From positions 1 to 64,000 of the forward strand of contig CALMWC010000011.1 of the NCBI GenBank assembly GCA_937801655.1: 64,000 nucleotides of DNA, given 5' to 3'. The stretch comes from an uncultured Gammaproteobacteria bacterium. GTDB lineage: Bacteria; Pseudomonadota; Gammaproteobacteria; Steroidobacterales; UBA11654. Positions 47,564-61,454 of this stretch are shown piece by piece (the first letter of the stretch is position 1; each line of letters opens with the position of its first letter). Both the position numbers and the translations under genes were made by a program. The notes under the pieces are model-generated. The model was given only the letters and a program-made list of their open reading frames with translations. It did not search any database and had not been told where the DNA came from.

Positions 47564-48160
47564 TTATTGAGGTTTTTGATTATGGCCTATGGGTGGAAAA
47601 CTACTAGGATCACATCCTTGTGGTGCTGATACCAAGACACTTTGATATAGTTTATCTTCAGTTTCTATGCTTTCTTTAGTCACACCAGCTATTTTTTCCC
47701 AATCACTGGGTTGAAAGACTTTCTCCTCTAATTCAAATGTAGAGTGACGATTGGAGGCCAACATATTTAGAAATACATCAAGAAAAGCATGGGCTTCCTT
47801 TTTGAATATATCAACTTCATATAATCCTGATTTAATAAGATCTTCTTTAGCCTGACTCAGTTTATTTAAAGCTTCCTCCATAGCTTTTAACCCATTACTT
47901 AGACTATCTAATTTATCTATATATTCTTGATTATTAGGCTCTATATGAGGAGCTAATAGATCATGAAGAATATAATCTTGTGTCACTAAGCGTTTGAGTG
48001 AGGAATCTAAATAACTGCAACACATGACGTAAAAATTAATCAATCCCGGGTCGACATGACCGTCAGCTAAGCTTTTTGTAAATGCCCTTCTAACTTGTGA
48101 TAAATGAGTTCTCTCAGTCATTACATGAGTTTGATAGTCTTTGTTAGCTGTTGTTTTCAT
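47564..48160 (-). CDS. Helical protein, possibly hemerythrin-like
   Basis: 198 residues from ATG 48160. Mostly alpha helical, no signal peptide. A spaced set of His and acidic residues (YILHDLLAPHIE near 65; HAFLDVFLNMLASNRHSTFELEEKVFQP near 125-155) recalls the HHE four-helix fold, in which H and E/D bind a di-iron or cation site. The match is by eye and weak. It lies between a paraoxonase-like gene and an SDR on the same strand. Confidence 0.5.
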   Translation of the reverse strand: MKTTANKDYQTHVMTERTHLSQVRRAFTKSLADGHVDPGLINFYVMCCSYLDSSLKRLVTQDYILHDLLAPHIEPNNQEYIDKLDSLSNGLKAMEEALNKLSQAKEDLIKSGLYEVDIFKKEAHAFLDVFLNMLASNRHSTFELEEKVFQPSDWEKIAGVTKESIETEDKLYQSVLVSAPQGCDPSSFPPIGHNQKPQ

Positions 48161-48167
48161 ATTTCTA

Positions 48168-49250
48168 TTATAGATCACAAATTAATAACTTTTTATCATC
48201 AATTGACCCCATAAATAATCTATTTTTCCATATAGTACCAACACTAGCGGTTGAGAGATCATTTCCTTCACTTAAGAAGAGTTCATCTATTTTTGGCTTA
48301 GATCCAAGGGACTCAAATTCCCAGTTAAATCGTAATACTTGAGAAGGAGCCGGAATAACCTTTTCACTTTGAAAGGATATGAAGTGTTGAATCAGTGCTA
48401 TTACTTTGGGTATAGCCGCGACAACTATATCACCCTTATCCGTGATATTAATATTGTCTGGTGAGCCACTTATTTTTATAGTTTCTAATTTATTTAACTC
48501 TCCGTTTCCAGAATCAATAGAAAAAATTGCAATTCTTTGTGCGGTTGTTTCAGAGGCAAATAAATATTCTTGATTGTTGGAAACATTGATTCCAGAAACT
48601 TGAGATAAGTTTTTTGCGGCAATGACGACTGTGTTTCCATTAAAATAAGCAATTTTAGACATGGGCCTTCCTAATTGTTCTTGGATTTTCCCAAACATTG
48701 TTTGAGCTCCCTTATCATTACCCAAATAAAACTTATCTTGAGCCACTAAGACAAGAGCGTTAGGGCTCTTAAAGGCATTATCTATAACCGTTTGTTGATA
48801 ATCGAATAAACCACTTCTTCCTTCGGAAAATAATTCAACAGTTTCATCTCCAGATTCCCTATTTTTTGGATGATTGATGACCCCTAGATGTCTTTGACCA
48901 TTTTTATCAATATACAAGCTAATACCATGCGGCCTAAGGTGATCAGGCTGCTGACTTAATGCTGGCTGCAATTCATAAGGCGTTTCATTTAAATTGATTT
49001 TTACTATTGTCCCTTGGACATCTTCTCCTTTGATTAGGGCTGCACGATCTTCTAAAGAGAGATAAGCTATGCCTCTTTCATAGTCAATTTTAATATCTTC
49101 GGCACTTCCATCCATGGGTAAAACTGAACAGAGATCAGGTGTTTTGGCTGTCAAAGTTTTAAAAACATCCATTCTATTAGCCATGTAGAGTGAGAAAATT
49201 ATAATCAGAATAAATACTGATATTATTATTTTAAGTATTCTTTTAATCAT
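48168..49250 (-). CDS. Paraoxonase/arylesterase-like beta-propeller protein
   Basis: 360 residues: one N-terminal membrane segment (about 5-24), then features of the serum paraoxonase (PON) family: SAEDIKIDYERGIAYLS, LRPHGISLYID, GVINHP, TVELFSEG, NALVLVAQDKFYLGND, GINVSNNQEYLFASETTA and PDNINITDKGDIVVAAIP. In PON proteins the Asn and Asp of such segments bind the catalytic calcium, and lactones or esters are hydrolysed. Bacterial relatives are poorly studied. It would face the periplasm. Divergent from an MFS transporter across a gap holding a tandem repeat. Confidence 0.75.
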   Translation of the reverse strand: MIKRILKIIISVFILIIIFSLYMANRMDVFKTLTAKTPDLCSVLPMDGSAEDIKIDYERGIAYLSLEDRAALIKGEDVQGTIVKINLNETPYELQPALSQQPDHLRPHGISLYIDKNGQRHLGVINHPKNRESGDETVELFSEGRSGLFDYQQTVIDNAFKSPNALVLVAQDKFYLGNDKGAQTMFGKIQEQLGRPMSKIAYFNGNTVVIAAKNLSQVSGINVSNNQEYLFASETTAQRIAIFSIDSGNGELNKLETIKISGSPDNINITDKGDIVVAAIPKVIALIQHFISFQSEKVIPAPSQVLRFNWEFESLGSKPKIDELFLSEGNDLSTASVGTIWKNRLFMGSIDDKKLLICDL

Positions 49251-50710: not shown

Positions 50711-51706
50711 ATGAAACGAAGACAGTTTTTTAAAAATGTTGGAACGCTAGGTGCCTTCAGTGCCGGAGCAGCAGCCCTTAATCTATTTTCAGAAACAGCA
50801 AAGGCAGATTTACCTTCTGCCTATGGCAGTGCAATGGGTAAAGACTTAAAAGGGCCTTACCTAGATTTAGGTACCGGAGTAGGGAATAAGTTTGCTTACG
50901 CAAGACTCAATGGGGACTTGGATGAAACCAAACAAAAATATGGCTGGTTCAAAGGCTATATAATGGCCATTAGGCCAAACAAACCCATCCTTGATGTTTT
51001 GGGTGTTGCAGGTTTTGGAGTATCTCGATTGGAGAAACAAGCCGATGGTTCTTTTGCAAAAATTCTTAGAGAAGTTGCTTTTTATACCGATCTTCGTTCT
51101 GGTGAAATCCTTGAAGAATGGAAAAATCCTATCACTAATGAGTGGGTCAAAGTGGTTCCAATTGCCAATGATCCTTTCAATTATGTGATTGAGGATCATT
51201 TTCCTTCGCCACCAAAATTTGGAGATTTAAATCAAGAAGAGCCACCAAAGATTCCATTTATCTTGCCATGGCAACAAAGAGGAAATCGCTTGGACATGGA
51301 GATACATATCAATCTTTTTTATCCCAATGCTTTGAATCCAAAAAAATGGGTTAGAGAATCTTCAGGACCTATGGTTCCGGTATCGGAAGCCTTTGCTTAT
51401 CATGTCGACGCCAATCATATGCAGGATTCTAGTATGACTACTTTGCCATTTAATGGTACATGGAATAGAGTTACTCCTTGGCTACCTTGGATGTTAATGG
51501 GACAAACACCAGGGCATATGCTTTATTCAGCTTTTATGGGCTCAGGAGAAGATTTAGAACAAGTGCACAGTCGACAACTTCTAGACTATGTTGAGAAAAA
51601 TTATAATAAATATTTCACAGCTCCAGAAACATATGACCCTAAAACTCCCAGTCTTTCAAGCTTGGAACTTTATGCTATAGAGCAAGAGCCAATGGAAATC
51701 AAATAA
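50711..51706 (+). CDS. DUF1838 family protein with Tat-type signal
   Basis: 331 residues. MKRRQFFKNVGTLGAFSAG with AKA at about 32 is a twin-arginine-like signal peptide, so export in folded form is likely. The mature part (FPSPPKFGDLNQEEPPKIPF, TPWLPWMLMGQTPGHMLYSA, SGEDLEQVH) looks like the DUF1838 family, whose role is unknown. It follows an MFS transporter in a probable operon and precedes a TetR regulator. Confidence 0.72.
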   Translation: MKRRQFFKNVGTLGAFSAGAAALNLFSETAKADLPSAYGSAMGKDLKGPYLDLGTGVGNKFAYARLNGDLDETKQKYGWFKGYIMAIRPNKPILDVLGVAGFGVSRLEKQADGSFAKILREVAFYTDLRSGEILEEWKNPITNEWVKVVPIANDPFNYVIEDHFPSPPKFGDLNQEEPPKIPFILPWQQRGNRLDMEIHINLFYPNALNPKKWVRESSGPMVPVSEAFAYHVDANHMQDSSMTTLPFNGTWNRVTPWLPWMLMGQTPGHMLYSAFMGSGEDLEQVHSRQLLDYVEKNYNKYFTAPETYDPKTPSLSSLELYAIEQEPMEIK

Positions 51707-51803: not shown

Positions 51804-52460
51804 ATGCCAAAAACAAAATTAAAAACAAAACCAAGAAAGAGACTAACACCAAGCGACCGTGAAAAAGAGATCGTAGAAGAAGCTGTCCAGTTCTTTGCTG
51901 AAGTTGGTTTTGAGGGAAAGACGAGAGATTTAGCAAAACGAATTGGCATCACACAACCTCTACTGTATCGTTATTTTCCAAATAAAGAGGATCTTATTGA
52001 GCGGGTCTATAAGGAAGTATTCCTAAATTGGATCAATCCTGAATGGTCTATAAAACTCAAGGATAGGTCTGTACCTCTGCAGCAAAGATTGATTGATTTT
52101 TATCTGTCTTATGCGACAACAGTGCATCGTTATGAGTGGATAAGGATATATTTTTTCTCAGGCTTGATGGGTAAGCCACTCAACCGAAGATACATTAGGT
52201 TAGCAGAAGATGAATTCCTTAAACCGATATGTGAAGAAATTAGAGTGGAATGTAATTTACCTGATGTTAAGAAAATACCTATTACCCCACTTGAATTGGA
52301 GAGATTATGGGTCATGCATGGTGGTTTATTCTACTATGCCGTTAGAAAGAATATTTATCATGCCAATGTATTAAATGATTTTGAGGCAATTGTAAGTACC
52401 TCGGTACAAGTGATGCTTGAAGGTGCTAAATCTATTGATATCAAGGAATTTGATTTATAA
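51804..52460 (+). CDS. TetR-family transcriptional regulator
   Basis: 218 residues. After a basic N-terminal extension comes the TetR helix-turn-helix: EEAVQFFAEVGFEGKTRDLA, KRIGITQPLLYRYFPNKEDL. The C-terminal ligand domain is not recognisable. It may control the MFS/DUF1838 genes upstream or the catabolic genes beyond. It ends 12 bases before the convergent hydrolase gene. Confidence 0.88.
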   Translation: MPKTKLKTKPRKRLTPSDREKEIVEEAVQFFAEVGFEGKTRDLAKRIGITQPLLYRYFPNKEDLIERVYKEVFLNWINPEWSIKLKDRSVPLQQRLIDFYLSYATTVHRYEWIRIYFFSGLMGKPLNRRYIRLAEDEFLKPICEEIRVECNLPDVKKIPITPLELERLWVMHGGLFYYAVRKNIYHANVLNDFEAIVSTSVQVMLEGAKSIDIKEFDL

Positions 52461-52472
52461 AAAGATCATTGC

Positions 52473-53237
52473 CTATATTTTTAAAAACGCTCTTAAGTGT
52501 TTAATAAAATCTTCTTGACGCTCTAAAGGAGAGACATGTTGTGCAGGTGAAAGCCACTCCACTTGTGTTTTTTTAATATTTTCATCCAACCAAGAAACGG
52601 CTTCTTTGAATAAAATATTATCTTCTCTACCACACATAATTAAGGTATCGCTATCAATCAAAGATGCATAGTCTTCTGTATTAGCTAAAGCAAGAGCTTC
52701 ACAGGCTAACGCATAACCTTCGTCTGACATTGAATTAATAACAGACCTACAGTATTTGATCTCAGATGAATTATGCGATAGAAAATCAGGCGTAAAAAAT
52801 GCTTCTAGGAGTTTCTCCTTCATGGTTGATACACCCTGACTCCTTGCAATACTTGCTCTTTGTGCCCAGTTTTTTTTCCATTCTTGAGAATATTTTGTTG
52901 TGGTGTCTATTAGTATTAGTTTTTCAACTACATCTGGATTATGAGCGGCTAAATGTTGTGCAACCATACCACCAATGGATAGACCCACAAAACTTGCTTT
53001 TGAAATCTTATTTCTCTTGAGTGCCTTAATGAGGTCTGAGGATAGATCTTCAATATTATATGGATATTCTGGAGGTGGATTGATTCCATGACCCGGTAAA
53101 TCATACGTCAAGGTTTGTGCCACAGTTGATAATTCTTCGATGCAAAAGTTCCATAAGTTATGATCGAGTCCTAATGAATGGATAAAAATAATTGGATGAC
53201 CTTGGCCATGAGTATAAAAATGAATTTCATTATTCAT
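52473..53237 (-). CDS. Alpha/beta hydrolase (enol-lactonase/RutD-like)
   Basis: 254 residues. Oxyanion segment FIHSLGLDHNLWN, nucleophile elbow GLSIGG (Ser87), acid Asp206 in GREDN, and His234 in AQHVSPLER form a full triad. The size and pattern match 3-oxoadipate enol-lactonase and RutD-type hydrolases. Its start overlaps the end of the dehydrogenase gene by eight bases, so it belongs to the minus-strand operon of the catabolic island. Confidence 0.85.
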   Translation of the reverse strand: MNNEIHFYTHGQGHPIIFIHSLGLDHNLWNFCIEELSTVAQTLTYDLPGHGINPPPEYPYNIEDLSSDLIKALKRNKISKASFVGLSIGGMVAQHLAAHNPDVVEKLILIDTTTKYSQEWKKNWAQRASIARSQGVSTMKEKLLEAFFTPDFLSHNSSEIKYCRSVINSMSDEGYALACEALALANTEDYASLIDSDTLIMCGREDNILFKEAVSWLDENIKKTQVEWLSPAQHVSPLERQEDFIKHLRAFLKI

Positions 53238-54132
53238 CTTTATCTGCTCCTTCTTGATCTATTTTTTTTAAGGTTTCATAAACTGCTGCTGTATCCTCTT
53301 CTTCTAGACCCATCTCTAAGGCTAATTCATAAAGCTCTTCTGTGGCAGAAAATAAAGGAGTAGAAACACTATAAAGGTCGATGAATTCTCTAATTAAAGT
53401 CATATCTTTCTTCCAAACATTCATTTTCATAGTTGCAGGTTTGTATTCTCTTTTCATCATCATGGGTGCACGGAGCTCAAATATCTTGGAGGTGCCTGCA
53501 CCAGAGGAGATCACTTCAAATATTTTATCTAGGTCAATGCCGGTTTGTTCAGCCAGTAAAATAGCCTCAGCGGAGGCTACGTTATGAATCGATACTAAAA
53601 AATTAGCTATTAGTTTAATTTTGCTGCCATTACCAAAGTCGCCTAGATAAAAGCAATCCTTAGAAAAAGAATTAAAAATTGATTCAATCTCTTTATAGCT
53701 CTGTTCATCGCCACTCGCATAAATCACAATATCAGCTCGAGAAGCTTGCTCACCAGTTCCACTAATAGGACAATCCAACAAATGAATGTTCTTAGAAATT
53801 AATTTTTCTTTGTTTTTAGACTTGCAAGCAATACCTAGAGTGCTCATCTCAATGATCGTTTTAACTGTTGTGTCTTTTAAAGAAACTAATCGATCAACTG
53901 TATCACTCAGAGATTGTTCATTTGGCAGACAAGTTATAATCACATCAGAGCTTCTAAGTAACTCTTTAAGACTCGTTGAGATTGTCAGTGGTTGTCCATT
54001 GTTTTCGATAAGTTTATTTTGATCAATATCAAAACCAATAACTTGATGATTGCTTGAAAGTAGATGCTTTGAAATTGCTGATCCAATAATGCCTAAACCA
54101 ACAACTCCAATTTGAAAAGATTTCTCTTGCAT
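53230..54132 (-). CDS. Beta-hydroxyacid dehydrogenase (3-hydroxyisobutyrate dehydrogenase family)
   Basis: 300 residues. GVVGLGIIGSAISKHL binds NAD(P), DCPISGTGEQA is the substrate loop, and GNGSKIKLIANFL has the catalytic Lys. The C-terminal all-helical part follows. The family oxidises small beta-hydroxyacids such as tartronate semialdehyde or 3-hydroxyisobutyrate. A second, different member lies at 56711-57589, so the island has two. It comes 32 bases after the flavin monooxygenase. Confidence 0.88.
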   Translation of the reverse strand: MQEKSFQIGVVGLGIIGSAISKHLLSSNHQVIGFDIDQNKLIENNGQPLTISTSLKELLRSSDVIITCLPNEQSLSDTVDRLVSLKDTTVKTIIEMSTLGIACKSKNKEKLISKNIHLLDCPISGTGEQASRADIVIYASGDEQSYKEIESIFNSFSKDCFYLGDFGNGSKIKLIANFLVSIHNVASAEAILLAEQTGIDLDKIFEVISSGAGTSKIFELRAPMMMKREYKPATMKMNVWKKDMTLIREFIDLYSVSTPLFSATEELYELALEMGLEEEDTAAVYETLKKIDQEGADKDE

Positions 54133-54164: not shown

Positions 54165-55241
54165 TTATTGATTGAGCTTAGGCATAACTTCCTTTGACAT
54201 TAATTCCATAGATCTTTTTGAAAGTTCAGGTTCAACCCAATCATGAGCCGCATAAACAAGTGTACCAAAATCCCCAGTTTTTTCTTTGAACGACTCAATT
54301 TGTTCAACCACACTATCAACTGTTCCAGTTATAACTAATGAATCAAGAACATAATCGAGAGTTACATCTGAATCCGCCATATCTCTGTCATGCTTAAATA
54401 AATCAGGTCTGCCATTTCCAATAAGCTTTTTCATCATTTGTTTAAAATAAAAATGATAAGGTCCATCAGGTCCTTTGCCATATCTTTGTGCTGTTTTTTC
54501 ATCGTCAGCAACAAAAATACTTTTTGCTACTCTCCAATTTTCCGTTTTCGCTTCATAGCCTCCTAGTTCACAACCTTTCTTATACATTGGCCAATGAGAA
54601 GCTACCCATATTGGTTGTAGAAAATTCGCTGAAATTGGTGTCCATCCTCTTTGTGCAGCTAAGACGATTCCTTTTGAGAAGGGCGCTACAACTGTCACAA
54701 CTATGGGCGGATGTGGTTTTTGATAAGGGGAGACTATAATGCCTTGTCCTGTTTCTTTATCCAGATTCAACTCTGTTGAGATGTTCCAATATTTACCCTC
54801 TAGATTATATGGTGCCTCTTTATTCCAAATATCCAATATATGGTTGATTGATTCGACAAACATTTCAGTTCTATCTTTATCTAAATTACCAAATATCTCA
54901 GCATCAGATAAGAGTCCACCGGGACTGATACCAAATAGAAATCTTCCTTCCAGCATGTTATCGATCATTGCTACTTGAGCAGCTATTCCTGCTGGATGAT
55001 TGTTCGGTAGATTAACGGTACCGCTCCCAAGTTTAATATTTTTTGTGTCATTGATTAGGCTAGCAATAAATATAAGACATGAAGTTACTGGCTCAGCTTT
55101 GTCTGTGACATGTTCACCAATAAATGCTTCATCGAAACCTAACTGATCAGCCAGGATGATAGCTTCCCTATCTTCACGAAGTACTTCTGTGTAACTTCGT
55201 TCAGGAGGGTGCAAGGGCATTGTAAAAATCGATAATTTCAT
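54165..55241 (-). CDS. LLM-class flavin-dependent monooxygenase
   Basis: 358 residues, luciferase-like fold. MKLSIFTMPLHPPERSYTEV, ADQLGFDEAFIGEHV, LGSGTVNLPNNHPAGIAAQVAMIDNMLEGRFLFGISPGG and VASHWPMYKKGCELGG are typical of bacterial luciferase-like (limonene-monooxygenase-type) enzymes. They use reduced FMN and O2 to oxidise organic substrates; RutA belongs to the same superfamily. First gene of a minus-strand operon, divergent from the triple-RidA gene. No flavin reductase gene is seen nearby. Confidence 0.88.
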   Translation of the reverse strand: MKLSIFTMPLHPPERSYTEVLREDREAIILADQLGFDEAFIGEHVTDKAEPVTSCLIFIASLINDTKNIKLGSGTVNLPNNHPAGIAAQVAMIDNMLEGRFLFGISPGGLLSDAEIFGNLDKDRTEMFVESINHILDIWNKEAPYNLEGKYWNISTELNLDKETGQGIIVSPYQKPHPPIVVTVVAPFSKGIVLAAQRGWTPISANFLQPIWVASHWPMYKKGCELGGYEAKTENWRVAKSIFVADDEKTAQRYGKGPDGPYHFYFKQMMKKLIGNGRPDLFKHDRDMADSDVTLDYVLDSLVITGTVDSVVEQIESFKEKTGDFGTLVYAAHDWVEPELSKRSMELMSKEVMPKLNQ

Positions 55242-55376: not shown

Positions 55377-56696
55377 ATGACTGAAAAATTGGAAAAAACA
55401 ATCAAACCAAGAGCTATTTGGCCGGGTCTGAAAGATGGAGTTCCCAAGCCTATAATGCCATACAGTCCAGCTATTAAAGTAGGTGACTGGGTCTTTATTG
55501 CTGGTCAATTGGCCAGTGATTTTAAAACTGGTCTGCCAAGTGAAGTTATACCTAATAGTGAAAGTGGAGCTATCAGTGGTTTGGAGCTGCAATCTGATTT
55601 TATTTATAGAAATATTGAACAAACACTTCAAGCAACTGGTTGTAATATGAAAATGGATACCATGAAAACATGGGAGTGGTTTGTTTCCGAACACCCAAAT
55701 CAAAAAAGTTTCTTATCGTCTAATAATTCGCATCGCTTGGACATAAAACCTTATGAAAATTCGATGAACAGATCCTTTCAAGATTATCTGCCACCAAGAT
55801 CCTCCATAGGGATCAGTGAACTTATGTGGGTTGGGACCCAAATTGAGTTAGAGGTAATTTGTCTTGCTAGCCAAGATGAATCAATATATTTTTCTTTAGG
55901 TGGAGACCAATCAGAAAAATCTTCAATGCATACAGATGCCATTCGCAAAGGAGATTGGATTTTTACTAGCAATCAAAATGGAATGGATGAAGATGGTTTA
56001 TCCAATGATTCTATTGAATTACAAACTGAGCGCATGCTTGAAAAATTATTACAAATATCGGAAAAATCTGGCAGTAGTTTTGAACAATCAGTCAAAGCTG
56101 AAGTTTTTATAGGGGATTCTAGGGATTTCGCAGTTGTTGATAAGATATGGAAAAAATGGTTTCCTAACAATCCTCCTGCTCGATTTGTGCTCCCTCATTC
56201 GGGGATGAATCATCGTGATATAAAAGTAGAAGCTTCCCTGATGTTACTTACTGATGAGAGTCATTTAAAAAAAGAAGTTATCGAAGCTTCTGATGCTCCA
56301 AAACCATTAGGGCATGAGCCTCAAGCAATTAAAGTTGGTAATCTATTATTTTTTAGTACCCAAATGGCTTTTGATAATAATGGGAAGCTAGCGGAGGGCA
56401 TGACCAGAAATCCTGCAGCACCATGGTATGGAAGACCTGCACAGACTCAGATGAGATATATGATGGAGAATATTAATGCAATTTCTGAAGCTGCTGGCAC
56501 AACGGTTGAAAATATTGTAAGAAGAGCATGCTTTCATGATGATCTGCAATGGTTTGCTGAGTCCATAGAATCTTGGGCAAGCTATTTTCCTAATGATAAA
56601 CCTGCATCAACCACCATTGGCATGAATCATTCTCTAGGTATTGATGGAGCCAATACTTCATTGGATCTTATAGCTTTTGTGCCAGACGATGACTGA
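55377..56696 (+). CDS. Three fused RidA domains (single-chain RidA/YjgF protein)
   Basis: 439 residues, about three times a usual RidA. Domain 1 (about 26-165) has YSPAIKVGDWVFIAGQLASD and PPRSSIGISELMWVGTQIEL; domain 2 (184-291) has AIRKGDWIFTSNQ and PPARFVLPHSGMNHRDIKVE; domain 3 (314-435) has AIKVGNLLFFSTQMAFD and KPASTTIGMNH. The Arg that binds the substrate carboxylate in active RidA is present in domains 1 (Arg141) and 2 (Arg269) but is Ser411 in domain 3. RidA proteins are homotrimers with sites between subunits, so this looks like a covalent pseudo-trimer. Role unknown; RutC-type or enamine deaminase chemistry is suggested by neighbours. Confidence 0.85.
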   Translation: MTEKLEKTIKPRAIWPGLKDGVPKPIMPYSPAIKVGDWVFIAGQLASDFKTGLPSEVIPNSESGAISGLELQSDFIYRNIEQTLQATGCNMKMDTMKTWEWFVSEHPNQKSFLSSNNSHRLDIKPYENSMNRSFQDYLPPRSSIGISELMWVGTQIELEVICLASQDESIYFSLGGDQSEKSSMHTDAIRKGDWIFTSNQNGMDEDGLSNDSIELQTERMLEKLLQISEKSGSSFEQSVKAEVFIGDSRDFAVVDKIWKKWFPNNPPARFVLPHSGMNHRDIKVEASLMLLTDESHLKKEVIEASDAPKPLGHEPQAIKVGNLLFFSTQMAFDNNGKLAEGMTRNPAAPWYGRPAQTQMRYMMENINAISEAAGTTVENIVRRACFHDDLQWFAESIESWASYFPNDKPASTTIGMNHSLGIDGANTSLDLIAFVPDDD

Positions 56697-56710: not shown

Positions 56711-57589
56711 ATGAAAAAAACAATTAGCTTTCTAGGATTGGGGAAGATGGGTGCAGTGATGGCTCCCTTATTACTCCAAGCCGGACATCAACTTACGGTA
56801 TACAATCGTGATCCAAAAAAGGCCACTGCACTTGTTGACCAAGGCGCTAAGCTTGCATGCTCTCCACAACAGGCGTGTGATTCTTCAGACTTTATTTTTA
56901 CAATGCTAAGCGATGATAAAGCCATTCAATCCGTATTTTTTGATAATAAAGGACTTCTGAGCACAGATGTAACAGGAAAGTTATTTATTGATATGAGTAC
57001 TTTACAAGTTGAAACTGTAAAGATTCTCTCTGATGCCATCATAAAGCAAGGAGCTGACTTTATAGACGCACCTGTATCTGGAACAGTTGCTCCTGCTGCG
57101 GAAGGTAAATTGATGTTTTTTTGTGGCGGAGAAACTGCAGTGATTCAACGAGCAATGCCTTTGTTAGAGATTCTTTCTAGAAGAATTATCCATGCAGGTG
57201 ATATTGGCTCTGGTGCTTTATTGAAGTTGGTTGTTAATCTGCCTCTAGCAGTTTATTGGCAGTCGCTTGCTGAAGCCGTAAGCTTAGGATCATCAGGAGG
57301 ACTGAATGAGGATTTAATGCTGGATGCTATTGCGGACAGTTCTGCAGCATTAGCTGTCCTTTCTATGAAAATACCCACCATTTTAGGAGCCGATCTGCCC
57401 GTGGCTTTTGATATGAAAAGTATGGAAAAAGATTTAAATTCTATACTAATTACAGCACAACAATTAAACCTAAAATTACCAACTACAAATTCAACGCTTA
57501 GAAGTTATTCGGAAGCAATAGAAAAGGGCAATATGGGTGATAAAGATGCTGTAACTGTAGTGAACTATTTAAAGAATAAGGCCAAATAA
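56711..57589 (+). CDS. Beta-hydroxyacid dehydrogenase (HIBADH family), second copy
   Basis: 292 residues. SFLGLGKMGAVMAPLLLQAG binds the cofactor, DAPVSGTVAPAAEGKL is the substrate loop, and GSGALLKLVVNLPLAVYWQS holds the catalytic Lys. Clearly the same family as the gene at 53230 but differing throughout, so not a recent duplicate. 15 bases after the triple-RidA gene and 17 before the CocE-like gene: one operon. Confidence 0.88.
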   Translation: MKKTISFLGLGKMGAVMAPLLLQAGHQLTVYNRDPKKATALVDQGAKLACSPQQACDSSDFIFTMLSDDKAIQSVFFDNKGLLSTDVTGKLFIDMSTLQVETVKILSDAIIKQGADFIDAPVSGTVAPAAEGKLMFFCGGETAVIQRAMPLLEILSRRIIHAGDIGSGALLKLVVNLPLAVYWQSLAEAVSLGSSGGLNEDLMLDAIADSSAALAVLSMKIPTILGADLPVAFDMKSMEKDLNSILITAQQLNLKLPTTNSTLRSYSEAIEKGNMGDKDAVTVVNYLKNKAK

Positions 57590-57605: not shown

Positions 57606-59345
57606 ATGATACAAAAATCAGAAATAAGAGATGGGATGCAAATTGAATGGAATTATCCAATTGAAATGGACGATGGTTTAATTTTACGAGCCGATATATT
57701 CAGACCTATTGGTACTGGCAGTTACCCTGTCTTAATCACTTATGGCCCATATGCAAAAGGCCTTCCCTTTCAGCAAGGTTACCCAAGTGCTTGGGATAGA
57801 ATGGCAGAAAAGCATCCTGATGTAACACAAGGTTCAACCAATAAGTATCAAAACTGGGAAGTGGTAGATCCTGAGAAATGGGTGCCTGACGGCTATATAT
57901 GCATAAGAGTTGATTCCAGGGGTTGTGGTTGTTCACCAGGCTTTGTTGATCATTTTTCACCCAGAGAAACACAGGACTTCTCCAAATGCATTGAATGGGC
58001 AGGTGAGCTGGAATGGAGCAATGGGAAAGTAGGTTTGAACGGTGTTTCATATTTTGGTATTAATCAATGGCTGGTGGCTTCAAAACAGCCTAAATATTTA
58101 GAAGCAATGTGCATATGGGAAGGAGCCAGTGACTGGTATAGAGACATGACACATCATGGCGGTATTCTCAGTACTTTTTGGGCTAATTGGTTCGATATGC
58201 AAGTAAAAACAGTACAGTATGGCTTAGGTGAAAATGGTCCAAGAAATAATTTAACTGGTGAACTGATTTGTGGTAATGAAACCCATACGGAAGAAGAGTT
58301 GGCTCTAAATAGATGTCAGTTTGGTGATGAGATAAGAAGTCATCCATTTGTAGATGATTATCATCGTGAGCGATCAGCAGTTTGGGAAAATATCAAGGTT
58401 CCTCTTTTGTCAGCAGCCAATTGGGGTGGACAAGGGCTTCATTTAAGAGGCAATACTGAAGGTTATATAAGAGCAGCATCTAATCAGAAATGGCTCGAAA
58501 TTCATGGATTAGAGCATTGGACTGAATTTTATACCGACTATGGGGTCAAGTTACAAAAACGATTTTTTGGTCATTTTTTGAAAGGGGAGAATAACGACTG
58601 GGCTACTCAACCAAATGTTCAGTTACAGGTCAGACATCTTGACGGCTTTAAACAAAGAAATGAAAATCAATGGCCTATTGGTAGAACCGAGTGGCAGAAA
58701 CTTTATTTAAGTGCTGATAAAAAAATATCAACTGAATATGAATGCAAAGAATCAAATAGACTGGTTTTTAATGCAATGGGAGAGGGCATTGATTTTCAGT
58801 CTGAGCCGTTTAAAAATGAAACTGAGATTACAGGTCCTCTAGCACTAAAAATATTTGTGTCTTCTTCTACTAGTGACGTTGATATTTTTGTAGTGCTTCG
58901 TTTGTTTGGCCCTTCAAATAATGAAATTGTTTTTCAAGGTGCTGTCGATCCTAACACTCCTATTGCACAAGGTTGGCTGCGAGCTTCCCATAGAAAGTTA
59001 GATCGTGAACAATCTAAACCTTGGAGACCTTTTCATAGCCATGATGAATCTTGGCCCTTGAAAACGAATGAAATTGTAGAGATGGATATTGAAATATGGC
59101 CCACATCAATAGTGATTCCAGAAAACCATTATTTGACTTTATCCATTCAGGGTAAAGATTATGAATATCCACTTGCTGAGAATCAAACTTTATCTAATTT
59201 TAAAAATCAACTCACTGGATGTGGACCTTTCCTTCATGATGACTCAATAGATAGAGACGCTACTTTTGATGGAAAGACAACAATTCACTTTAATCCAGAT
59301 CATGCTTCTTACCTAATGGTTCCAATTATTCCTGAGAAGCAATGA
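57606..59345 (+). CDS. CocE/NonD-family serine hydrolase
   Basis: 579 residues. The N-terminal alpha/beta-hydrolase domain has RVDSRGCGCSPG and the elbow GVSYFG with Ser148; a His lies in HGLEHWTEF near 299. The C-terminal half (about 360-575) is the jelly-roll typical of CocE/X-prolyl dipeptidyl peptidases. Substrates of this family are esters or amides such as cocaine, glutaryl-7-ACA or X-Pro peptides. No signal peptide, so cytoplasmic. Two bases before the racemase-like gene. Confidence 0.87.
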   Translation: MIQKSEIRDGMQIEWNYPIEMDDGLILRADIFRPIGTGSYPVLITYGPYAKGLPFQQGYPSAWDRMAEKHPDVTQGSTNKYQNWEVVDPEKWVPDGYICIRVDSRGCGCSPGFVDHFSPRETQDFSKCIEWAGELEWSNGKVGLNGVSYFGINQWLVASKQPKYLEAMCIWEGASDWYRDMTHHGGILSTFWANWFDMQVKTVQYGLGENGPRNNLTGELICGNETHTEEELALNRCQFGDEIRSHPFVDDYHRERSAVWENIKVPLLSAANWGGQGLHLRGNTEGYIRAASNQKWLEIHGLEHWTEFYTDYGVKLQKRFFGHFLKGENNDWATQPNVQLQVRHLDGFKQRNENQWPIGRTEWQKLYLSADKKISTEYECKESNRLVFNAMGEGIDFQSEPFKNETEITGPLALKIFVSSSTSDVDIFVVLRLFGPSNNEIVFQGAVDPNTPIAQGWLRASHRKLDREQSKPWRPFHSHDESWPLKTNEIVEMDIEIWPTSIVIPENHYLTLSIQGKDYEYPLAENQTLSNFKNQLTGCGPFLHDDSIDRDATFDGKTTIHFNPDHASYLMVPIIPEKQ

Positions 59346-59346
59346 A

Positions 59347-60018
59347 ATGAGTGAGGCAAAGAAAGTAGCTCTCATTCATGCACTAGAGGAATCCAAACAA
59401 CCTGTTTGGGAATCTTTTTATGATCTTTGGCCTGAGGCAGTTTTAAGTAATTATTCAGATCTATCATTGTCAAAAGATCGAAACCTTGGTCAAAATGAGA
59501 ATACTATTGGCCAAAGAATTAGTAATTTAGCAAAAATGGCAGTATCTGAGAATGCAGATGCTATTTTATACACCTGTTCTGCTTTTGGCGATGAAATTAA
59601 TCAAGTGAAAGACCAATACAGTATTCCAATTCTCAGACCCAATGAAGCTGCATTTATTGATGCCATACAGTTAAAGCAAAAGATAAAAATAATGGTCACA
59701 TTTTTACCTTCTTTGGAATTGTTGACTCAAGAAATTAAAACCATGATGGTCGAGTCTAATACTGAATTAGAGGTTGAAGGAATTTATGTTGAAGAAGCGC
59801 TTAAGTCATTACAAAATGGTTTAGTGAATCAACACGATGATCTGATTGCAAAGATCGCATTAGATCAGACAGACGATTGCACAATTATTTTAGGTCAATT
59901 TTCTATGGCTTCGGCATTGTCAAATATCAGTGAGAAAAATTCTGATTTGAGAGTGTTGACAACTCCTGATTCATCCGTATTAAGACTGAAAAAAATTATA
60001 GAAGCTAGATTGCCTTAA
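59347..60018 (+). CDS. Asp/Glu-racemase superfamily protein with one catalytic Cys
   Basis: 223 residues. The pattern VALIHALEESKQPVWESFYDLWP, ADAILYTCSAFGDEI and IPILRPNEAAFIDAI fits the Asp/Glu/hydantoin racemase fold. The first catalytic Cys is present (Cys77), but the second, normally in a GC motif near the end, is Gln184 in LGQFSM. A one-Cys enzyme cannot do the usual two-base racemisation, so an isomerase, decarboxylase or lyase reaction is more likely. Ends in TTAA shared with the convergent amidohydrolase. Confidence 0.78.
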   Translation: MSEAKKVALIHALEESKQPVWESFYDLWPEAVLSNYSDLSLSKDRNLGQNENTIGQRISNLAKMAVSENADAILYTCSAFGDEINQVKDQYSIPILRPNEAAFIDAIQLKQKIKIMVTFLPSLELLTQEIKTMMVESNTELEVEGIYVEEALKSLQNGLVNQHDDLIAKIALDQTDDCTIILGQFSMASALSNISEKNSDLRVLTTPDSSVLRLKKIIEARLP

Positions 60019-61454
60019 TCAATCCAATTAAAACGACTTCTCTTTCTTAGGTATTGTCTCGCATTTGTTTCGTCTAGAAGTATCTCTTGAACTTGATCTG
60101 ACCTTTCAACTATCTTTCGATGATCCAGAGTTTGATGTTGTCCTCTTTTAACTATAACTTCTCCATGAACCATGACAGCTTCAATCGCATTTTGATTTGG
60201 ACCATTGCCATAAACTAAACTAGCAATTAATGAACCCATAGGACTAAGGTGACTTTCTTCCGTTCGATTGATTAAAACAAGATCAGCTTCTTTTCCAGTT
60301 TCAATGGAACCTATTTTATCATCCATCATTAAAGCTTTAGCTCCATCTATGGTAGCGAGTTCTAATGCTTGTTCAGCACTTCCATAGAGAACTTCCTCAC
60401 CAGTCCATTTAATATCCGTTTCAGACATCATTAATCTATGCTGATCTCCCATTCTTTGTGCAGTTAGATAACCTCTCATGGCTGTCCAAATGTTATGTCC
60501 ATATGCGACTACAGCACCATCTAGACCAAGTCCACAGGTGATATTAGAATCTAAAAAAGGCCTAGCATTGAAATTCACTAAACCTAATACTTGCTCCATA
60601 TCGGGTACTAAAGCAATCGAGGCACCAGCATCGGCTATCAGTTTTTCTTCTCCAGGTCTTAAGTTTTGTGCATGAGCAGCAATAACATTCGGGCCTAATA
60701 TTCCCACATGGTCCAACCATTCAAAAGACCCGCCTTCCCAACCTCTTCTTGCAGCTAAATATTTTTGATCAAATACTGCAGGAGCATGGATATCGAATTG
60801 TCGATTATTCTCATCAGTCCATTTCCATAACTCTATCAACTGATCGGGTTCACAATAGGTGATACCTATGGTTGAAGCCGTCACAGAAATTTTTTCATTT
60901 TCCCATTTTGACTTGATTCGTTCTGTTTCAGCTATCCCGGTATCCAGCGTTTCTCCAAAACCTTCAGGCACTGCATCCTTATCATTGATTGTCAGCCTAG
61001 CCATTCGACACCGAATACCAGAATCATCAACCGCTGCCAAAACTCCATCAATAGATTTTTTATGCAAATGGGTAAAGTGATCATCGGCAGTTGTAGTAAC
61101 CCCTCTTAAGGCTAGGTCCATAATAGAAGGCATAGCTGCATCGTAAGATCTTTCTTCATCACATGCACCAGTCATTGGATAATAGAATCCAAAAAGACGT
61201 TCCTCAAAAGTTGTTCCTTCTGCCATTCCTCTCATACAGCCTTGAATTAAATGTGAATGGACATTCACTAGGCCAGGTAGAATAACAAAACCTGAGCCTC
61301 CTAGGTTGTTATCAGATTCATATTCACACTCACTGAAAGCTCCAACAGATTCAATCTTGCCATCATTGATTGCGACATAACCGTCCATGAATACTCTCCG
61401 ATTCTCATCCATGGAGATTACTATTCCTCTCATTAATGTGTTACATGTTTTCAT
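60015..61454 (-). CDS. Amidohydrolase (cytosine-deaminase/chlorohydrolase-like)
   Basis: 479 residues, TIM-barrel metal hydrolase. Metal ligands fit: His66 and His68 in NVHSHLIQG, His223 in DIHAP, His261 in AHAQNL and Asp322 in GLGLDGA. The Glu that usually follows the third His in deaminases (HxxE) is not seen, and the usual GTDG reads GLDG. Family members deaminate or dechlorinate N-heterocycles (8-oxoguanine, S-adenosylhomocysteine, triazines). With the RidA and flavin monooxygenase genes it suggests a nitrogen-ring substrate. 28 bases before it lies the transporter on the same strand side. Confidence 0.87.
   Translation of the reverse strand: MKTCNTLMRGIVISMDENRRVFMDGYVAINDGKIESVGAFSECEYESDNNLGGSGFVILPGLVNVHSHLIQGCMRGMAEGTTFEERLFGFYYPMTGACDEERSYDAAMPSIMDLALRGVTTTADDHFTHLHKKSIDGVLAAVDDSGIRCRMARLTINDKDAVPEGFGETLDTGIAETERIKSKWENEKISVTASTIGITYCEPDQLIELWKWTDENNRQFDIHAPAVFDQKYLAARRGWEGGSFEWLDHVGILGPNVIAAHAQNLRPGEEKLIADAGASIALVPDMEQVLGLVNFNARPFLDSNITCGLGLDGAVVAYGHNIWTAMRGYLTAQRMGDQHRLMMSETDIKWTGEEVLYGSAEQALELATIDGAKALMMDDKIGSIETGKEADLVLINRTEESHLSPMGSLIASLVYGNGPNQNAIEAVMVHGEVIVKRGQHQTLDHRKIVERSDQVQEILLDETNARQYLRKRSRFNWID

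Follow-up and report, generated by a model that had tools for sequence, protein, structure and literature searches.

The window, a stretch of 64,000 nucleotides at the start of contig CALMWC010000011.1 from an uncultured gammaproteobacterium (GTDB lineage UBA11654), carries a gene for a protein built of three tandem RidA domains. Its open reading frame occupies 55377..56696 on the forward strand, starts with ATG and encodes 439 residues. The Rid superfamily domain PF01042 matches this protein in three stretches, scoring 141.2 bits against a curated cut-off of 27.3, and TIGR00004 scores 140.8 against a cut-off of 106.25, both scores being summed over the whole protein; the RutC equivalog TIGR03610 reaches 75.1 bits, short of its 169.1. 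On the genome, the PF01042 matches lie at 55443-55862 (E 4.9e-8), 55932-56234 (1.2e-16) and 56292-56624 (2.4e-13), E values at which the observation of three domains is not due to chance. The three RidA domains in one chain that a preliminary description had read from the DNA letters are thus present.

Based on the Pfam stretches and the secondary structure of the predicted model, domain 1 spans residues about 22-166 (55440..55874) and domain 2 residues about 180-294 (55914..56258); domain 3 covers residues about 299-436 (56271..56684), and all three are encoded on the forward strand. The corresponding strands of domains 1, 2 and 3 read KVGDWVF, RKGDWIF and KVGNLLF, and the motifs that contain the carboxylate-binding position read PPR141S, PPAR269F and KPAS411TT. 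Arg141 (codon 55797..55799), Arg269 (56181..56183) and Ser411, which had been named for this position, do occupy it; we take them to be the counterparts of Arg105 (E. coli RidA numbering, mapped by eye). The columns of RidA Glu120/Glu122 were checked in the domain alignment.

The AlphaFold2 model of the protein has a pTM of 0.91, and the 50 fold matches listed for it include single-chain chorismatases (PDB 5a3k, 5ag3 and 4bps), which share the predicted fold over nearly the whole length. Residue couplings tie domain 3 back to domain 1. Taken together, the couplings, the pTM of the model and the whole-chain chorismatase match make a closed single-chain pseudo-trimer a well-supported prediction. 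The covalent pseudo-trimer envisaged earlier is supported to this extent: three RidA folds lie in one chain, and prediction and couplings together point to a closed ring.

These matches raise the question of whether the protein is a chorismatase-like enzyme, whose substrate would be a cyclic enol-ether or similar carboxylate and not an enamine. We consider this very unlikely. Despite the shared fold, identity is only 12% over ~330 aligned residues, no chorismatase is found among 60 of the 64 PDB sequences matched by the family profile, and no shikimate-pathway gene appears among the window neighbours scanned. Chorismatase was considered as the family of the window protein and not adopted. Cyanuric acid hydrolase was likewise considered and not adopted. 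For this enzyme, AtzD, and for barbiturase (the 'Toblerone' fold), the authors propose a concatenation of three YjgF-family units, and these proteins differ from the window protein in having four-strand units, an active site in the central barrel, a metal site and a Ser-Lys dyad (PMC3758960). None of the 50 fold matches listed for the model is a cyanuric acid hydrolase, although such a match could still lie beyond this list. Two further single-chain proteins can be related to the YjgF trimer: chorismatase through its match to the predicted fold, and cyanuric acid hydrolase as proposed in the work cited.

Three sequence searches, which reported 392, 892 and 432 overlapping matches and of which the best 120 each were taken, gave at least 318 distinct relatives among the matches listed, all but one of them 415-489 residues long. 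With this number of relatives, the three-domain architecture is not a local accident; the presence of three PF01042 stretches was checked in three family members. Residue counts refer to 317 full-length aligned rows, the window's protein included. Left out from 320 rows were P0002 (a near-copy of the window protein), P0020 (a 309-residue fragment) and P0122 (partial).

Interpretation of these residues depends on which faces of the domains meet. In the trimer of the Rid protein AmnE, each cleft combines alpha4, beta4 and beta5 from one subunit with loop 1, beta2, beta3 and beta6 (plus alpha4) from the subunit that follows (PMC6742747); the cleft Glu is stated to be supplied by the neighbouring subunit (PMC4960622). 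Assignment by strands would place Arg105 on the first of these sides and Tyr17, Gly31 and Glu120 on the second. Two pairings were compared, in which the Arg side of domain i meets either domain i+1 or domain i-1. Strand topology alone gave contradictory pairings, and the pairing was therefore taken from couplings. A mean-field analysis of the 317 sequences scored five published inter-subunit contact pairs, from plant RidA and TdcF, in each of the three clefts; contact numbers were converted by eye with a one-residue tolerance, and sides were assigned by strand.

The i+1 pairing is higher in 14 of the 15 contact comparisons, with a mean z of 3.07 against 0.78 for i-1 (random inter-domain background, 1.50), and three values for i+1 lie above 95% of the background, against none for i-1. 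In whole-face mutual information, 52 of 4178 pairs exceed z>4 under i+1 and 7 of 4194 under i-1. Three disjoint sequence subsets favour i+1 in 8 of 9 comparisons, as do bootstraps in 30 of 30 (233 rows). The strongest inter-domain pair links Ser30, which adjoins Tyr29 of domain 1, to Asp407, four residues before Ser411 of domain 3. Most of the coupling signal comes from the cleft between the Arg side of domain 3 and domain 1 (cleft 3|1): its face score is 0.199 with 12 pairs at z>4, as compared to 0.132 with 5 pairs for cleft 1|2 and 0.037 with 4 pairs for cleft 2|3 (233 rows). Same-face control blocks reach 0.071 and 5 pairs at z>4, and only cleft 3|1 stands clear of them. Because the ring has three members, the direction taken at any one cleft also determines the other two. 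Consistent with this assignment, conservation levels match across the clefts, with invariant residues meeting invariant ones and variable residues meeting variable ones under i+1. The couplings thus suggest that each domain's Arg side faces the Tyr/Gly/Glu side of the next domain.

With this pairing, the canonical Arg, Tyr, Gly and Glu would come together in 0 of the 951 clefts of the 317 proteins. The preliminary description had assigned one site to each domain, but the sites are located at the domain interfaces, and all three clefts would lack part of the canonical set. In cleft 1|2, position 141 is Ser in 273 of 317 proteins and Arg in 18, position 185 is Tyr in 202 and His in 79, position 199 is Gly in 205, and Glu285 is kept in 307. 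All 18 proteins with Arg141 belong to the window's own branch, being at least 58% identical to the window protein where all others are at most 54% identical; this branch retains Glu285 and not the Tyr and Gly of the cleft. Arg141 and Arg269 had been put forward as the active pair, a proposal that is not supported, position 141 being Arg in this one branch only.

Cleft 2|3 would contain Arg269, the sole invariant carboxylate-binding Arg (317 of 317), opposite Glu314 in the place of RidA Tyr17 (317) and His313 (314; codons of both, 56313..56318). Here, the Gly31 place (position 328) is Thr or Gln in 304 proteins and the Glu120 place (position 428) is Leu in 271. Cleft 3|1 would combine Ser411, Thr412 and Thr413 (codons 56607..56615; 317, 317 and 316), which stand in the place of the RidA Arg motif, with Tyr29 (55461..55463, the Tyr17 equivalent; 316), Gly43 (317) and Glu157 (55845..55847, the Glu120 equivalent; 317). 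Arg344, Arg383 and His387 of domain 3 are found in 317 of 317 proteins, the latter two occupying the places of Ala and Ile in domain 2. Whereas the trimers of RidA, TdcF and RutC have three chains and three equal sites, the window protein has one chain and three unequal clefts.

The third site had been described as decayed, with its surface serving as a docking face. Ser411 does stand in the place of the Arg, but a decayed site is highly improbable given that Ser411, Thr412, Arg344, Arg383 and His387 show no exception in the 317 rows and that mean column entropy is lowest, if slightly, for domain 3 (1.06, with a small margin over domain 2 at 1.14; domain 1, 1.42). In the 120 rows of the first search, the values are 0.77, 1.38 and 1.40 for domains 3, 2 and 1. 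The invariant pocket residues and the lowest mean entropy indicate that domain 3 is under constraint and has not decayed. The residues of cleft 3|1 and six further domain-3 residues are also identical in all 27 copies compared, whether or not these belong to the operon; L024, L027, L031, L032 and L033, which have no single open frame, were left out of this comparison. The three-domain gene at L032:9872-11093 runs over several frames and represents a frameshifted copy or an assembly error.

Several points weigh against the i+1 pairing. The coupling depth is shallow, at 317 related sequences for 439 positions. For cleft 2|3, the face score of 0.037 is no higher than the same-face controls (up to 0.071), and i+1 wins all five contacts, yet none lies above 95% of the background; its own signal is weak, and its pairing therefore follows mainly from the ring order. 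The reverse pairing is favoured by 1 of 15 contact and 1 of 9 subset comparisons, and the coupling of Leu288 with Ile380 (z 5.5) fits it. It would also be simpler, in that Arg269 of domain 2 would face Tyr29, Gly43 and Glu157 of domain 1, giving 316 of 317 proteins one full set. The protein would then be a conventional one-site deaminase with one ordinary RidA site and two dead ones, and in functional terms one canonical site kept intact across the family is the simplest account. We nevertheless judge the reverse pairing unlikely. The couplings prefer i+1 in all but the two comparisons above, and the reverse arrangement sets invariant Glu314 against variable position 141 and invariant Ser411-Thr412 against variable positions 185 and 199.

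With the i+1 pairing retained, the reading we prefer, at about an even chance, is that the protein folds, as predicted, into a closed single-chain RidA trimer and probably deaminates enamines or imines at one site, cleft 2|3, or performs mechanistically close chemistry there. A single reaction centre is placed at this cleft because it keeps the Arg105 equivalent together with an invariant Glu in the Tyr place. In RidA, Arg105 is the one residue whose loss nearly abolishes activity, and Ala at Tyr17 or Glu120 has little effect (PMC4433059). If catalysis proceeds at cleft 2|3, it would involve: capture of the substrate carboxylate by Arg269, as by Arg105 in RidA; positioning of a water by Glu314 or His313; and a substrate that is an enamine, an imine or a similar carboxylate. 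Cleft 3|1 would then be a second conserved pocket, which may bind another ligand needed by the whole family.

Alternatively, cleft 3|1 itself (Ser411-Thr412-Thr413, Tyr29, Gly43, Glu157 and Arg383/His387) could be the reaction centre of a new chemistry that dispenses with the RidA Arg, leaving Arg269 as a structural residue or as part of a second binding site. The near-complete conservation of its residues (316-317 of 317) is in keeping with this proposal, as is the presence of Arg383 and His387 where domain 2 has Ala and Ile. It is nonetheless rather unlikely, as Arg269 is just as invariant, loss of Arg105 abolishes RidA activity (PMC4433059), and the Rid4-7 groups, which are without that Arg, are reported to show no deaminase activity (PMC8113886).

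The three-domain architecture itself has been described previously. Proteins with three tandem RidA domains were published in 2015 as '3x-RidA', with EF_0115 of Enterococcus faecalis as the example, and were viewed by the authors as 'presumably covalently linked trimer units' (Niehaus et al. 2015, PMC4433059). The claim that no three-domain RidA had been described is thereby not supported. The window protein, likewise three RidA domains fused in tandem, falls within this descriptive class. An E. faecalis three-domain protein encoded at L039:5440-6705, likely of the EF_0115 type judging partly by its gene neighbour, is 22% identical to the window protein in a rough whole-chain alignment. In the same locus (L039:5440-6708), the Arg105 position holds Lys in domain 1 and Arg in domains 2 and 3, such that these domains are also unequal. 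Across the open-licence literature, the 2015 paper was the only one found on three-domain RidA proteins and the only one to use the term '3x-RidA', and none was found, by title and opening of the abstract, on the window's family or gene cluster.

Shared descent of the two triplications is not borne out by a tree of 47 rows, which comprise the separated domains 1, 2 and 3 of ten family members, those of the E. faecalis protein and 14 single-domain proteins (L053 and L054, 2 of the 16 single-domain rows of a first tree, were in wrong reading frames and left out). All domains of the E. faecalis protein fall into one group (100/100), and within the window's family domains 1, 2 and 3 make up separate clades (99/97, 100/100 and 100/99, respectively). 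Constraining E. faecalis domain 1 with family domain 1, the one alternative tested and named after the first tree had been seen, is rejected at p-AU 0.003. The triplications in E. faecalis and in the window's family thus look independent, and three-domain RidA proteins appear to have arisen at least twice. The window's family is real and uncharacterised; its architecture was already known, and what is new, as far as the evidence goes, is the apparent sharing out of the canonical residues between the clefts, together with two new pockets.

Named sources of the relatives among the matches listed include Parasphingopyxis, Novosphingobium, Beijerinckia, Pantoea and a Thermoleophilia assembly. Where annotation is present at the source, it mostly reads 'RidA family protein' or 'enamine deaminase RidA', and once 'hypothetical protein'; the majority are unnamed. 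The gene is patchily distributed. It occurs in 3 of 10 genomes of the window's genus (G000, G007 and G009), and at E 1e-60 in 1 of 274 genomes sampled from the class (query P0001) and 1 of 398 from the phylum (query P0154), both being the window's own genome. A plasmid search with the window protein gave no match at E 1e-10; at 1e-3 it gave 689 records, none with a query coverage of 80% or more. PF01042 was not found outside the three-domain gene in the window's genome (G000, 82% complete), and a stand-alone copy is present in 8 of the 10 genomes of the genus. Replacement of the stand-alone RidA by the three-domain protein was considered and dropped, given the completeness of this genome and the presence of both kinds in G007 of the same genus.

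The genes around the three-domain gene were compared over 31 loci that encode a relative of the window protein. Downstream on the same strand lie a dehydrogenase of the 3-hydroxyisobutyrate/tartronate-semialdehyde reductase family (56711..57589; matches in 25 of 31 loci) and an alpha/beta hydrolase of the CocE/NonD family (57606..59345), the latter recurring with this placement and orientation at 25 of the 31 loci, at 63-96% identity. No CocE match was found in the sequence covered at L016, L021, L022 and L026, of which L016 and L022 have less than 2.7 kb downstream, and at L014 and L033 the sequence ends too early. A second hydroxyacid dehydrogenase of the same family lies at 53230..54132 (reverse strand); the two dehydrogenase queries match each other's genes, and their counts are not independent. 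A divergent luciferase-like flavin monooxygenase (54165..55241, reverse strand) recurs in 13 of 31 loci, divergent each time. The remaining members are a TetR-type regulator (51804..52460, forward; 13 of 31), an alpha/beta hydrolase nearest to 3-oxoadipate enol-lactonase and below its cut-off (52473..53237, reverse; 11 of 31, including nine with an identity of just 25-29% or 40%), an Asp/Glu racemase-like protein that scores 26.1 where the Pfam cut-off is 31 (59347..60018, forward; 14 of 31), and an amidohydrolase of the 8-oxoguanine deaminase/atrazine chlorohydrolase type (60015..61454, reverse; 16 of 31, four at 28-29% identity).

Asp/Glu racemase-like proteins usually have a second Cys; the protein at 59347-60018 has one Cys motif (YTCSAFG) and ILGQFS at the place of the second, and it gave no sequence match in the PDB. 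Further upstream, a DUF1838 protein with the N-terminus MKRRQFF (50711-51706) lies between an MFS transporter gene and the TetR gene of the cluster, an order kept in L004 and L034. At 47564-48178, a 204-residue protein with no Pfam match at 1e-5 is encoded in the same orientation as an arylesterase/lactonase-like gene whose end it overlaps, and both have counterparts in L004 and L034. The assembly that holds the operon copy L004 has a second three-domain RidA gene off the operon (L021:2837-4201), beside genes for a PIF1-type helicase and a fatty-acid hydroxylase. An isochorismatase-domain gene (L016:6770-7342) lies near a three-domain RidA gene that has no CocE neighbour; RutB is a member of the isochorismatase family.

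The gene set suggests a catabolic cluster in which the Rid protein would be a dedicated step of the pathway. A precedent is RutC, which deaminates 3-aminoacrylate in uracil breakdown (PMC8113886). The layout of the window cluster resembles the Rut pathway, in that it also combines an oxygenase, a hydrolase, a Rid protein and a hydroxyacid dehydrogenase. In outline, the Rut pathway proceeds by oxygenation, hydrolysis, deamination and reduction. The likeness is one of analogy only: among solved structures, the luciferase-like protein comes closest to 3,6-diketocamphane 1,6-monooxygenase and not to RutA.

A broader proposal can be advanced tentatively. Fusion of the trimer may have let evolution break its three-fold symmetry, giving two strictly conserved non-canonical pockets (Arg269/His313/Glu314 and Ser411-Thr412-Thr413/Tyr29/Glu157) whose reactions would be new, or would follow one another, within a so far undescribed catabolic pathway that includes the CocE/NonD and luciferase-like enzymes. 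If this is correct, the names 'RidA' and 'enamine deaminase' transfer to this family a function for which no pocket may be built. The linked gene cluster offers a route to the substrate, and the protein would serve as a natural experiment on what an oligomeric enzyme gains when its symmetry is broken.
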